DNA from: Ferroacidibacillus organovorans
GTDB taxonomy: Bacteria > Bacillota > Bacilli > Alicyclobacillales > SLC66
Length of the DNA stretch: 64,000 nucleotides
Direction: 5' to 3'
Assembly: GCF_001642725.1 (NCBI RefSeq)
Contig: NZ_LSUQ01000005.1
Location: forward strand, 1-64,000
The position numbers and the translations under genes are program-made. Positions 8,865 through 15,369 of the stretch are shown piece after piece (position 1 is the first letter of the stretch; each line of letters begins with the position of its first letter). The notes below the pieces were generated by a model. It was not told the origin of the DNA. It saw only the letters and a list, made by a program, of their open reading frames with translations, and made no database searches.

Positions 8865-8898
8865 CGTTAAACACCCCCGTAGGTATTGTGGATCTATA

Positions 8899-10837: not shown

Positions 10838-11278
10838 ATGATTCAAGAGGTATCCGATCTTTATGCGCTCCTTACGGCAGTCCATGAAAGTATTGACAAC
10901 ATGCTGAACGATTTGACGGATGGACAGTGGTTAAAAAAACCGTTTCCCAATTTCAACAATGTCGCGTCCGTGGTGGATCATATTACTCGCGTTGAGAAAA
11001 AATTTCTCTCGGGTATTGAAGGGGCGTTACTTGAAACCAATCCGGGAGAGCCGTTTAAGGTTGAGCAGTGGGACTTGTTTGCCATTCGTCAGGCGTGGGC
11101 TGCGTCACTTCCCTATGCGAGGCAGGTTTTGACAAAGGTCACCTTGGAGGACTTGACCGACCCGGGAATGAAACTAGGCATTGGCGAGTTAAACAAGCGC
11201 CAGCTCATCAGTTACACAATTGCGCACGCCACCCATCACCGAGGACAGATTCCACTTATTAAGAAGTTACTCGGTTGA
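10838..11278 (+). CDS. DinB-fold metal-binding protein
   Basis: A 146-residue four-helix protein of the DinB/YfiT superfamily. The likely metal triad is H48 (VVDHI), H130 and H134 (HATHHRGQ), as in related thiol transferases. A GGGGAGGT ribosome site lies eight bases before ATG 10838. Some relatives use bacillithiol or mycothiol as cosubstrate, but the reaction here cannot be assigned. It follows the chemoreceptor by 22 bases and is probably cotranscribed with it. Confidence 0.85.
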   Translation: MIQEVSDLYALLTAVHESIDNMLNDLTDGQWLKKPFPNFNNVASVVDHITRVEKKFLSGIEGALLETNPGEPFKVEQWDLFAIRQAWAASLPYARQVLTKVTLEDLTDPGMKLGIGELNKRQLISYTIAHATHHRGQIPLIKKLLG

Positions 11279-11619: not shown

Positions 11620-11662
11620 TATACCTTTAAGGGTATTATAATCTTGTCCTGTTTGGCGTCAA
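11620..11662 (-). promoter_or_regulatory. cstR promoter with CstR operator O1
   Basis: On the reverse strand TTGACG (11657-11662), 16-base spacer and TATAAT (11635-11640). Overlapping the -10 and start region is TATACC-TTTAAG-GGTATT (11620-11637), an inverted repeat with the same half-sites and spacing as O2 and O3. A bound repressor would block its own promoter. Confidence 0.72.
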
Positions 11663-11699
11663 TACGAAAAGATTGGAGAGAGGGGAGCACGCGTCTCAC

Positions 11700-11729
11700 T
11701 TGACATATATACCCCGATAGGTATATAAA
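11700..11729 (+). promoter_or_regulatory. Rhodanese-tauE promoter with CstR operator O2
   Basis: TTGACA (11700-11705), 18-base spacer and TATAAA (11724-11729). The spacer holds the operator TATACC-CCGATA-GGTATA (11708-11725), lying between the -35 and -10 boxes. Confidence 0.75.
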
Positions 11730-11767
11730 TACCCTATCTCGTAGATGTGATAGAGGGGGTACGTTCA

Positions 11768-12148
11768 TTGAATTATACATGGTTGATCTTGGTTTTGGTG
11801 ATTGTGGCCTATTTTTTTTGGAGCCGTAAACGTGGTTCCGGAGTTTCACAAATCAGTTCTGCAACCTTGCAGGAAAGATTAAAGAGTGATGCTTCATCTC
11901 TGGAGATCGTGGATGTGCGTGAGCCTTCTGAGTTTAAAAGTGGGCACATTGCAAAGGCGAGAAATATCCCTCTTGGAACATTGGATCGGATGCTAGCTGA
12001 AATCCCGAAGGATAAAGATGTCGTATTTGTATGCAGGAGTGGTGCGCGCAGTTCCATGGCGGCGCGTAAAGCACAAAAGGGTGGATTGAAAGCGATTTAT
12101 AATCTGACCGGCGGTATGTCCAGTTGGAGCGGTCCTGTAAAAAAATAG
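11768..12148 (+). CDS. Membrane-anchored rhodanese
   Basis: A 126-residue single-domain sulfurtransferase behind an N-terminal membrane anchor (about residues 3-21). The active-site loop is CRSGARS, with the persulfide-carrying cysteine at residue 89, and the family motif VDVREPSEFKSGHI is present. The TTG at 11768 is selected because AGGGGG lies eight bases upstream. The rhodanese domain should face the cytoplasm and may pass sulfane sulfur to soluble acceptors. First gene after operator O2 and cotranscribed with the exporter gene. It resembles B. subtilis YqhL in layout. Confidence 0.88.
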   Translation: MNYTWLILVLVIVAYFFWSRKRGSGVSQISSATLQERLKSDASSLEIVDVREPSEFKSGHIAKARNIPLGTLDRMLAEIPKDKDVVFVCRSGARSSMAARKAQKGGLKAIYNLTGGMSSWSGPVKK

Positions 12149-12196
12149 TGTAAGCAAAGACAAGTCTTTCATCTTGAATGTCTTGAGTGAATCTGA

Positions 12197-13000
12197 ATGG
12201 ATGGGGTGATGGCCATACTTACGGTCTCGCAGACAATTCTCGCTATTGTATCCGGCGGTGTGGTCGGTTTTACATTAGGCTTACTTGGTGGCGGTGGCTC
12301 CATTCTTGCGGTTCCACTGCTACTCTACGTCGTTGGGTTACGTGACCCGCACGTGGTGATTGGAAGCACTGCGCTCGCAGTCTCTGTAAATGCATATATC
12401 AACCTGATTTCGCACGCACGCAAGAAGAATGTATGGTGGAAGCCGGCGATCGTCTTTTCGCTTCCCGGGATTGCCGGTGCATATCTAGGGACAGTTTTGG
12501 GAAAATTGGTTCCAGATAAGCAGCTTCTTTTTTTGTTTGCAATTCTCATGATAGTGATAGCGGTCCTTATGCTTCGTCCTAAAAAAGCAACATCTGGACA
12601 AACGTTTGACAGAAGCAACATTCGCTGGCTGAGAATTATCATCGCAGGGCTGTTGGTCGGACTTTTGTCAGGGTTCTTTGGCATTGGCGGCGGGTTCTTG
12701 ATTGTTCCTGGATTGATCTTTAGTACCGGGATGCCCATGATTCTGGCGATTGGCAGTTCACTCTTCTCTGTCGGGACGTTCGGATTAACGACAGCGATCA
12801 GTTATGCAGTATCTGGGTTGATCGATTGGTGGGTCGTGCTCATGTATGTTGTCGGGGGAATCGTTGGTGGCGTATTTGGGTCGTGGGCAGCTACAAAATT
12901 GAGTGCAAAACGCAAGACCCTAAATTATATCTTCTCGTCGATTATCATCGTTGTGGCAATCTACATGCTAATCATCAACTTCCAAGCCATGCATTTATAG
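12197..13000 (+). CDS. tauE: TauE/SafE-family sulfur-anion exporter
   Basis: A 267-residue membrane protein with about eight spans and the internal duplication of the family: glycine-rich LGLLGGGGSILAVPLLLY near the N-terminus and LSGFFGIGGGFLIVPGLI in the second half. The family exports sulfite, sulfoacetate or thiosulfate-like anions. Its place beside cstR parallels S. aureus tauE of the cst locus, so sulfite or thiosulfate export is the likely role (inference). ATG 12197 has only a weak ribosome site; an in-frame ATG at 12209 is an alternative. Confidence 0.88.
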   Translation: MDGVMAILTVSQTILAIVSGGVVGFTLGLLGGGGSILAVPLLLYVVGLRDPHVVIGSTALAVSVNAYINLISHARKKNVWWKPAIVFSLPGIAGAYLGTVLGKLVPDKQLLFLFAILMIVIAVLMLRPKKATSGQTFDRSNIRWLRIIIAGLLVGLLSGFFGIGGGFLIVPGLIFSTGMPMILAIGSSLFSVGTFGLTTAISYAVSGLIDWWVVLMYVVGGIVGGVFGSWAATKLSAKRKTLNYIFSSIIIVVAIYMLIINFQAMHL

Positions 13001-13021
13001 AAAACAATGGTTGTTTCTCGG

Positions 13022-13066
13022 TTGACATGGAGGATGACATCATCGTACTATACCCTCTATGGTATA
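13022..13066 (+). promoter_or_regulatory. dsrE operon promoter with CstR operator O3
   Basis: TTGACA (13022-13027), 18-base spacer and TACTAT (13046-13051). The operator TATACC-CTCTAT-GGTATA (13049-13066) overlaps the -10 and the probable start point. It lies about 85 bases before the first dsrE gene. Confidence 0.75.
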
Positions 13067-13149: not shown

Positions 13150-13545
13150 ATGGCGAAGCGCGTGGCGATTATCGCATCAAACGGTGGGCTAGAGGCTGCC
13201 TACAAAGTCTTAAACATTGCTACGGCGGCAGCGGCCACCGATGCGGAAGTTGGAATTTTTTTTACGTTTGAAGGATTGTCGATCATTCACAAACAATCCG
13301 AAACAATGCTCAAGCTTCGTCCTGAGAATGAGCACTTTTCGGAAGGGTTTAAACGCGCGAATGTCCCGACGGTAAGCGAATTACTCGAAATTGCGCAGGA
13401 CAGCGGTGTAAAAATGATTGCTTGTCAGATGACCGTAGATGTTATGGGTTTAAGTAAAGACGATTTTATCGATGGAATTGAAGTGGGCGGAGCGGTCGCC
13501 TTTTTGGATTTCGCCTACGATGCAGACGTGTCAGTGACATTTTAA
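13150..13545 (+). CDS. DsrE-like sulfurtransferase 1
   Basis: A 131-residue DsrE/F/H-fold protein (COG2210-like). The active-site region ACQMTVDVMGL carries the single likely sulfur-binding cysteine at residue 92, and the C-terminal GGAVAFLDFAYDADVSVTF is characteristic. Such proteins carry sulfane sulfur as a cysteine persulfide and exchange it with TusA. GGAGGG precedes ATG 13150. First gene of the second unit; 22 bases separate it from the TusA-rhodanese gene. Confidence 0.9.
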   Translation: MAKRVAIIASNGGLEAAYKVLNIATAAAATDAEVGIFFTFEGLSIIHKQSETMLKLRPENEHFSEGFKRANVPTVSELLEIAQDSGVKMIACQMTVDVMGLSKDDFIDGIEVGGAVAFLDFAYDADVSVTF

Positions 13546-13567: not shown

Positions 13568-14146
13568 GTGACGCAGCAACTTGTTAATTTGACAATTGAT
13601 TGCAAAGGGCTTTCGTGCCCAATGCCCATAGTAAAAACGAAAAAGGCGATTGATCAAGTGAGTCCTGGCCAAGTGTTGGAAGTGCTCGCAACTGATCCAG
13701 GTTCGGTTGCTGATATCAAGAGTTGGGCGACGCGCACGGGACATCAGTTTATTGGAACAACGAAAGATGGAAATGTTTTCAAACACTACATCCGTCGGAC
13801 CGATCCGAACGAGGTGAGGCCAGAGAGTCGGCACGCGGACGTGATCAGCAATGAGGAACTCCAAGCATTGCTATCTCAAAATCCGGTGATTCTGGACGTT
13901 CGTGAACCCATGGAGTATACTTTTGGACATATTCCTGGAGCGAAACATGTGCCTCTGGGACAACTCGAAGAGGAACTTGAATCACTTCGCAACTTTGCCG
14001 ATCAAGTGATCCATGTTGTGTGTCGAAGCGGCAATCGTAGTGATACGGCGTGTCAAATTCTATCCGAGCACGGCTTTCCACATGTGAAAAATGTAGTGCC
14101 TGGCATGTCTGAGTGGACTTTTGATCTCGAACAAAGTCAGTCGTAA
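13568..14146 (+). CDS. TusA-rhodanese fusion sulfur carrier
   Basis: A 192-residue two-domain protein. The N-terminal TusA domain (about 1-80) has the CKGLSCPMP signature; C17 of the CPMP motif is the sulfur-carrying cysteine. A rhodanese domain follows (about 90-190) with active-site loop CRSGNRS (cysteine 152). S. aureus CstA combines rhodanese, TusA and DsrE modules in one chain; here DsrE is encoded separately just upstream. It should relay sulfur between small-molecule persulfides and proteins. GTG 13568 follows AAGGGGGAGC. Confidence 0.93.
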   Translation: MTQQLVNLTIDCKGLSCPMPIVKTKKAIDQVSPGQVLEVLATDPGSVADIKSWATRTGHQFIGTTKDGNVFKHYIRRTDPNEVRPESRHADVISNEELQALLSQNPVILDVREPMEYTFGHIPGAKHVPLGQLEEELESLRNFADQVIHVVCRSGNRSDTACQILSEHGFPHVKNVVPGMSEWTFDLEQSQS

Positions 14147-14153
14147 TTTGGAT

Positions 14154-14192
14154 GATGTAGAAAACCTGCCTGTTGTGCGAGTTTTCTACATC
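14154..14192 (+). repeat. 12-bp inverted repeat inside the sulfur operon
   Basis: GATGTAGAAAAC (14154-14165) and GTTTTCTACATC (14181-14192) form a perfect 12-bp stem with a 15-base loop, seven bases after the TusA-rhodanese stop. No T tract follows, so it is not a classic terminator. It may be an RNA processing or stability element or a regulator site. Confidence 0.75.
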
Positions 14193-14255
14193 GTGCATCG
14201 CTGTGCTGGGAACGATAGGATTGAGATCAGACGGTTTGAGAGAGAGGGTATGAAG

Positions 14256-14573
14256 ATGGCGACGACTGCAATTACAGACGCAACGTTTCGTGATTTTATC
14301 AATTCGGATAAACCTGTCTTGGTTGATTTTTGGGCAACGTGGTGTGGTCCCTGCAAGATGATGGCTCCTGTTCTTGAAGAGGTGTCCCATGAGTATGCCG
14401 CTAAACTCAAAGTTGGTAAGCTCGATGTTGACCAGAACCCACAGATGTCACAGCAATACCGTATTATGAGCATTCCAACGATCATCGTGTTTCAACAAGG
14501 TAAGCCGGTAAAGCAAATCGTAGGATTTGTACCCAAAGCTCAATTGATCTCTCAATTGACTGGGATCATTTGA
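14256..14573 (+). CDS. trxA: Thioredoxin
   Basis: A 105-residue classical thioredoxin with the active site WCGPC (C30 and C33), the FWATWCGPCKMMAP segment and the cis-proline loop SIPTI. ATG 14256 is chosen because GAGAGAGGG lies seven bases upstream and the length fits the family; an ATG at 14250 is too close to that site. In this locus it probably reduces persulfides or disulfides on TusA, DsrE or rhodanese partners (inference); the organism may have other, housekeeping thioredoxins. Confidence 0.95.
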   Translation: MATTAITDATFRDFINSDKPVLVDFWATWCGPCKMMAPVLEEVSHEYAAKLKVGKLDVDQNPQMSQQYRIMSIPTIIVFQQGKPVKQIVGFVPKAQLISQLTGII

Positions 14574-14642
14574 TCTCGGAAAAATCGTTGCGGGTGCGCG
14601 CCGAGCGAATGCGAGAAAATACGTCGCAATGGAGAGTGCTCC

Positions 14643-14987
14643 GTGAAGACAAGACACATCGTCTATTTTATCGCGCGCAGCGAGCGCGTCCCGCAAGTTT
14701 TAAAGGATGCGCTGCAGAGAATCTCAACACACGAGATTGACCTTTTCTTTGATTTGGATGGAACGCATGCGCTGGATAAGCGGTATGCGAATCATCTTTC
14801 CAAGGAACTGGGCATTGATCTTTTGGCACTGTTCGAACAGGCGATTCAAGCGGGCATCCATTTATACGCATGCCAAATGAATGTCATGAATTCTTGTCAC
14901 CTTCACTGTATCGATGGTGTTGAACCGGCTGGTGTGGTCACATTTCTTGAATGCGCATACCGAGCTGACGCTGTCTTCAGCTATTGA
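14643..14987 (+). CDS. DsrE-like sulfurtransferase 2
   Basis: A 114-residue DsrE-fold protein, shorter than copy 1 but with the same active-site block (YACQMNVM, cysteine 77) and ending GVVTFLECAYRADAVFSY. Two further cysteines in CHLHC shortly after the active site are not found in copy 1 and could hold a second thiol relay or a metal. GTG 14643 has GGAGAG six bases upstream. The next gene starts ten bases after its stop. Confidence 0.85.
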   Translation: MKTRHIVYFIARSERVPQVLKDALQRISTHEIDLFFDLDGTHALDKRYANHLSKELGIDLLALFEQAIQAGIHLYACQMNVMNSCHLHCIDGVEPAGVVTFLECAYRADAVFSY

Positions 14988-14997
14988 GGTGATCGCG

Positions 14998-15369
14998 TTG
15001 GAATCTAAAAAAGTGGTACTCTTCGTTTTACATAGTGAATTAGAGTCTGCGTATCCACCGTTGAATATTGCGGTCGGCGCTGTTTCGTCGGGTGCTGAAG
15101 TGATTTTGGCATTTGGGCGAGACGGAGTCGATATCTTGCGCTCTGACTATATACCGATTCCCTCGAAAGGAGGCGCCTATCTCGCGAATGGTCTTTATGA
15201 TTTTGGCGCGCCGAGCATTATGGAGCTCTTAGAGATTGCGTCAGAGATGGGCGTTCGTTTTGTTGTCATTGATGAAGACCACGTTCCGACGAAGTGGTTG
15301 ATTGAGCGAAAGGAACTCCGCTGGATCCTCAATGAATCGGCAGATGCGGATCTTTTTGTCCACTTTTAG
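14998..15369 (+). CDS. DsrE-like protein 3, lacking all cysteines
   Basis: A 123-residue DsrE-fold relative. The N-terminal strand (KKVVLFVLHSELESAY), a SIMELLEIASEMGV helix and the C-terminal DADLFVHF align with copies 1 and 2. The active-site block is replaced by FVVIDEDHVPTKW and the protein contains no cysteine, so it cannot carry a persulfide. It could be a structural subunit in a DsrEFH-like heteromer (inference). TTG 14998 follows GAGGTG by six bases; the in-frame GTG at 14989 is an alternative. Its stop overlaps the convergent gene by four bases. Confidence 0.8.
   Translation: MESKKVVLFVLHSELESAYPPLNIAVGAVSSGAEVILAFGRDGVDILRSDYIPIPSKGGAYLANGLYDFGAPSIMELLEIASEMGVRFVVIDEDHVPTKWLIERKELRWILNESADADLFVHF

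Follow-up and report, generated by a model that had tools for sequence, protein, structure and literature searches.

The analysis of a 64,000-nucleotide stretch of Ferroacidibacillus organovorans (hereafter the window) revealed a sulfur locus which, together with sites dispersed over the genome, highly likely constitutes a CstR regulon, in which ATACC-N6-GGTAT operators would be bound by a dithiol CsoR-family repressor and released by persulfide. This analysis observed the sites and where they are placed, their specificity across the genome, their conservation, and the sensing residues of the repressor. A regulon of the CstR type is supported because the protein family, the sensing residues, the tree, the operator placement, the near-exclusive occurrence at reactive-sulfur genes and the recurrence in 15 of the 17 relatives all point to it.

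An identical palindrome had been reported at 11620, 11708 and 13049 by a first-pass annotation of this DNA, and these coordinates proved exact, with TATACC-N6-GGTAT(A/T) occurring without mismatch at three places (five strand matches) in the window vs none in 100 dinucleotide shuffles of it, as shown in Table 1. The further claim that the palindromes lie over the -10 or between the -35 and -10 elements was right in substance, with promoters called by hexamer matching only and a scanner total in the region that did not exceed chance (8 hits vs 6.2 expected). When up to two mismatches were allowed, 10 matches were obtained in the window vs 1.9 expected, and a two-mismatch site at 8870-8887 was set aside as an operator, being within chance. 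Downstream of operator 2, at a distance of 20 bp, an additional half-site (AATACCC, 11728-11745) was observed whose only partner is degenerate; it is possibly a second tetramer contact.

Table 1. Operators, promoters and genes of the window locus, with operator sites elsewhere in the genome and operator-linked SOR genes in relatives
Feature	Position	Strand	Evidence or remark
cstR, CsoR/RcnR-family (DUF156) repressor, 86 aa, C31/N56/C60	11331..11591	-	PF02583 (DUF156 / CsoR-RcnR domain) 86 bits, cut-off 22.8; residues; tree
Operator 1, TATACCTTTAAGGGTATT	11620-11637	.	cstR promoter, overlaps -10; conserved in sister genome G001
cstR promoter, TTGACG-16-TATAAT	11635..11662	-	hexamer matching; last 3 nt of -10 overlap operator 1
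rhodanese-tauE promoter, TTGACA-18-TATAAA	11700..11729	+	hexamer matching; spacer filled by operator 2
Operator 2, TATACCCCGATAGGTATA	11708-11725	.	in rhodanese-tauE promoter spacer; conserved in G001
Membrane-anchored rhodanese	11769..12148	+	PF00581 71 bits; TTG start placed from GAGGGGG before it and the G001 orthologue
tauE, TauE/SafE-family sulfur-anion exporter	12197..13000	+	PF01925 182 bits
dsrE-tusA promoter, TTGACA-18-TACTAT	13022..13051	+	hexamer matching; last 3 nt of -10 overlap operator 3
Operator 3, TATACCCTCTATGGTATA	13049-13066	.	dsrE-tusA promoter, overlaps -10; conserved in G001
dsrE-like sulfur carrier	13150..13545	+	PF13686 120 bits
TusA-rhodanese fusion	13568..14146	+	PF01206 92 bits, PF00581 69 bits
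Long-stem hairpin without U-tract, between tusA-rhodanese and trx	14151..14195	+	fold z = -3.0
Thioredoxin (trx), possible later gene of dsrE unit	14256..14573	+	TIGR01068 132.9 bits, cut-off 96.8
DsrE-like protein, possible later gene of dsrE unit	14643..14987	+	PF13686 29.6 bits
DsrE-like protein, weak match	14999..15369	+	PF13686 24.8 bits, just below 25-bit cut-off; TTG start placed from the preceding GAGGTGAT
Site before YgaP-type membrane protein	C11:27677
Site before CoA-disulfide-reductase-rhodanese, then BshB-like PIG-L deacetylase, then DUF2249 protein	C23:20534
Site before second tauE	C28:3980
Site before PDO and two rhodaneses	C76:8286
Site before CstB-like metallo-beta-lactamase-rhodanese protein (CstB-like persulfide dioxygenase)	C94:4780
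SOR gene	G015:C1:535956-536852		linked to same operator
SOR gene	G017:C35:39041-39937		linked to same operator
SOR gene	G014:C132:6029-6925		linked to same operator

The sister genome retains all three operators and the same succession of genes, running from cstR through the first small DsrE. Because of the hairpin between the tusA-rhodanese and trx genes, which is possibly a processing or attenuation point, trx and the two DsrE-like genes after it (14256-15369) may depend on the dsrE promoter only in part. On its other side, cstR adjoins a convergent gene (10838-11278) encoding a DinB-family protein that matches mycothiol S-transferase and is possibly a bacillithiol S-transferase; in three relatives (G010, G011 and G012), a DinB-family gene also follows cstR directly and on its strand.

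The first-pass annotation had ascribed to the repressor the C31/C60 pair of CstR and an Asn in place of the copper histidine of CsoR, and the residues C31, N56 and C60 were confirmed, with no metal-ligand histidine between the two cysteines. Each family genome possessing a CstR keeps these three residues in its best CstR match. The copper C-H-C site is thus absent from the window repressor, having N at position 56, and no copA/copZ linkage was found for it, its neighbours being rhodanese, tauE and dsrE, while the two other CsoR-family proteins of the genome are of the C/H/C type (H56) and both lie beside copA. In the phylogenetic tree, which has few columns and weakly supported deep branches, the copper CsoRs form a separate clade (96/88) that includes neither the window protein nor the Bacillota CstRs, and the window repressor groups with the Bacillota CstRs, apart from CsoR and InrS, on a branch (89/85) below the starred level. 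The closest solved structure by sequence, 7mq1, is deposited as a CsoR and is presumably a pneumococcal CstR; its fragment sits on a long branch of the tree. In the sister genome, a short cstR-like fragment with C31 replaced by R was observed close to the second tauE (G001:C31:55484-55636), and its sequence looks like that of a decayed second cstR.

Over the whole genome (3.03 Mb), the scan proposed in the first-pass annotation was informative in its exact form, with the 18-mer pattern found at seven places, all at sulfur genes, and at none in the backwards control, and uninformative in its two-mismatch form, with 91 forward hits vs 138 in the control and a signal not separable from the background. 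The relaxed core ATACC-N6-GGTAT gave nine sites vs one in the control, eight of them upstream of sulfur genes (three in the window and five outside). The N6 spacing accounts for 9 of the 19 ATACC-N(0-14)-GGTAT sites of the genome, and the next commonest spacing, N1, for four. The regulon of six to seven target genes in two units claimed earlier was therefore right and undercounted, since five more target units lie outside the window; around the sites before the CoA-disulfide-reductase and cstB genes, no clear sigma-70 promoter was seen. The ninth core site (C8:67861) was rejected as an operator, being without a promoter and within open frames. Three one-mismatch hits were likewise set aside, C11:33046 as lying within a coding frame, and C7:70415 and C11:40490 as having no sulfur gene recognised beside them.

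Across the family sample of 18 genomes (the window's own included), the exact pattern gave 57 forward sites vs 5 for the control, with at least one exact site in 16 of the 18. The proteins first downstream of the relatives' sites (n = 51; family counts overlap within a protein and are not additive) include 23 rhodaneses, 11 pyridine-nucleotide-disulfide oxidoreductases, 3 TauE, 3 metallo-beta-lactamase fold proteins, 3 thioredoxin-like proteins, 2 sulfur oxygenase reductases, 2 PIG-L proteins and 2 repressors of CstR's own family. That the palindromes are chance occurrences or have no regulatory role would fit the two-mismatch genome scan, which shows no enrichment over its control, but such an origin is exceedingly improbable in view of the zero count in shuffles and the excess of exact sites across the 18 genomes, mostly at sulfur genes. 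Among other Bacillota, the core was found at 23 of 37 cstR loci, with none in first-order Markov shuffles, and the exact core is absent from the other 14.

The half-sites of the copper CsoR operators in Streptomyces lividans (TACCCC..GGGTA, in a TAC-X9-GTA arrangement with C/G tracts; PMC3902906) are nearly the same as those found here. Together with the two CHC-type CsoRs beside copA, this lends some weight to the proposal that the genome's copper CsoRs use these sites as operators, or that copper and sulfur repressors share them, so that copper would be an inducer. We consider this very unlikely, as none of the eight sites lies at copA or a copper csoR, and the csoR2-copA2 promoter bears TACCCCTGTAGGGTA, a TAC-X9-GTA one bp longer than the TAC-X8-GTA common to all the sulfur sites. 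Around 60 cstR genes, 29 of the 30 scored sites are also X8. At the copper csoR loci, a scored site was obtained in only 2 of 9, both X9 and from sister species, which is a small sample; one bp of spacing may therefore keep the copper and sulfur circuits apart, a lead drawn from few copper sites. Cross-binding by the two copper CsoRs is conceivable because CsoR-family operators overlap in sequence. The copper CsoR of S. lividans resembles the present system in its protein family and TAC/GTA inverted repeat, and differs in its copper-ligand histidine, X9 spacing and copper efflux targets (PMC3902906). TAC-X9-GTA palindromes were noted at C8:28849-28864 and C8:30439-30455 in the csoR2-copA2 / multicopper oxidase region, and a family scan for this arrangement yielded, beyond the csoR2 promoter, mostly dispersed repeat and coding matches. 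ATACCCTGTGGGGGTA occurs at C17:1881 and C34:19693 of the window's genome and at C5:7094 and C11:35518 of the sister genome, within a dispersed element, AAAATCGGACTGTACCCCCACAGGGTATGCAGTCCGATTTT, that is itself a long inverted repeat.

Characterised CstRs repress rhodanese, TauE, CstB, SQR and CoAPR genes, and linkage of their cysteines by sulfane sulfur makes them lose affinity for DNA (PMC5480029, PMC9405070, PMC9918477). By analogy with these homologues, the window CstR, with its C31/C60 dithiol and no metal-binding histidine, would bind ATACC-N6-GGTAT over or between the promoter elements and block RNA polymerase. Sulfide or polysulfide would raise the cellular sulfane sulfur, C31 and C60 would be cross-linked between protomers by di- to polysulfide bridges, and the cross-linked CstR, with lower DNA affinity, would leave the sulfur-handling genes derepressed under persulfide as the inducer. 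Rhodaneses, TusA and DsrE would then transfer sulfane sulfur, the CoA-disulfide-reductase-rhodanese, CstB-like dioxygenase and PDO would reduce or oxidise it, and TauE would export the products.

CstR and most of the target types are already known from Staphylococcus aureus, Enterococcus faecalis and the YrkD of Bacillus licheniformis, and it is the regulon that is enlarged here. The B. licheniformis YrkD cluster (yrkD-yrkE-yrkF-yrkH-yrkI-yrkJ ... sqr pdo; PMC9918477), for which release by sulfane sulfur has been demonstrated, likewise has two operator regions and a CstR-like repressor with DsrE, TusA and rhodanese-type genes nearby, whereas the targets here lie on at least six contigs, have not been linked to an NreBC system, and additionally include a CoA-disulfide-reductase-rhodanese as well as a PDO that is probably a selenoprotein. 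S. aureus CstR shares the dithiol CsoR-family repressor and the tauE and CstB-type persulfide dioxygenase targets, but is thought to directly control a single operon (PMC5480029), compared with eight operators genome-wide here. The E. faecalis CstR also targets rhodaneses and a rhodanese-domain CoA-persulfide reductase (PMC9405070), while the present set is larger, with tauE, dsrE and tusA added. Sequence analysis alone extends a persulfide regulon here from a single operon to eight operator sites, with an operator exact enough for target prediction in relatives. A literature search found no studied CstR for the Ferroacidibacillus lineage, which is related to Alicyclobacillus.

A sulfur oxygenase reductase (SOR) gene was detected in three family genomes, with an exact site 81-85 bp upstream of it in G015 and G017, while in G014 it lies downstream of a PDO-rhodanese-rhodanese-tauE set beginning at a site. 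This linkage raises the question of whether the regulator serves mainly energy metabolism by sulfur oxidation rather than persulfide detoxification, like TTHA1953 of Thermus thermophilus, a CsoR-family repressor of dispersed sulfur genes which represses Sox genes (PMC10318464) and whose lack of response to NaHS in vitro (PMC10318464) counts against the persulfide-inducer reading. Such a role is unlikely in the window's genome, which has no SOR gene and whose targets match known detoxification sets, including the CstB-like dioxygenase and CoA-disulfide reductase. The TTHA1953 motif, TACNNTACNNNNGTANNGTA (PMC10318464), is also differently spaced, the sites here being TAC-X8-GTA, and its Sox targets set it apart as well (PMC10318464).

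In the operator-linked PDO gene at G000:C76:8374-9021 (L024), a TGA, the only one in frame, stands at the position of the first active-site Cys (FVTPT-TGA-PYCP); read as Cys, the gene scores 282.9 bits against TIGR02187 (cut-off 185), with a UxxC active site. A single TGA occupies this position in all 14 family genomes having the gene, and in the rest of the order the PDO exists in both Cys and TGA forms. In the Sec forms, the codons 3' of the TGA, GCC GCG GTG CGG, show almost no synonymous change and form a SECIS-like hairpin, AGCCGC-GGU-GCGGCU; neither holds for the Cys forms. The genome also encodes tRNA-Sec (63.3 bits) and a full-length SelB (372.5 bits). Judged from these features, the PDO is very probably a selenoprotein; TIGR02187 proteins with UxxC have already been listed as a selenoprotein family (PMC13188914), and control of a TIGR02187 PDO by a CstR-type repressor was not found in a literature search. 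Neither a probable selenoprotein disulfide oxidoreductase nor a BshB-like deacetylase or SOR was found reported there as a CstR target. Through these target types (SOR in relatives), persulfide sensing would be tied to selenium, bacillithiol and sulfur oxidation. A broader proposal, which we regard as evenly balanced, places three kinds of gene under direct control of the persulfide sensor: the PDO as a UGA-decoded selenoprotein, a deacetylase of the bacillithiol type and, in relatives, SOR. The sulfane-sulfur defence of this acidophile lineage would then be partly selenium- and bacillithiol-dependent and coupled to sulfur oxidation by a single operator that differs from the copper operators by one bp of spacing.

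The BshB-like PIG-L deacetylase gene (L023:4147-4830, on C23), downstream of the CoA-disulfide-reductase target, encodes a protein scoring below the BshB1/BshB2 cut-offs, and in three relatives (L115, L117 and L118) the operator lies directly upstream of a BshB-like PIG-L deacetylase gene; this operator linkage suggests a connection to bacillithiol. In several relatives, the PDO, cstR and rhodanese genes lie in one cluster behind a site.
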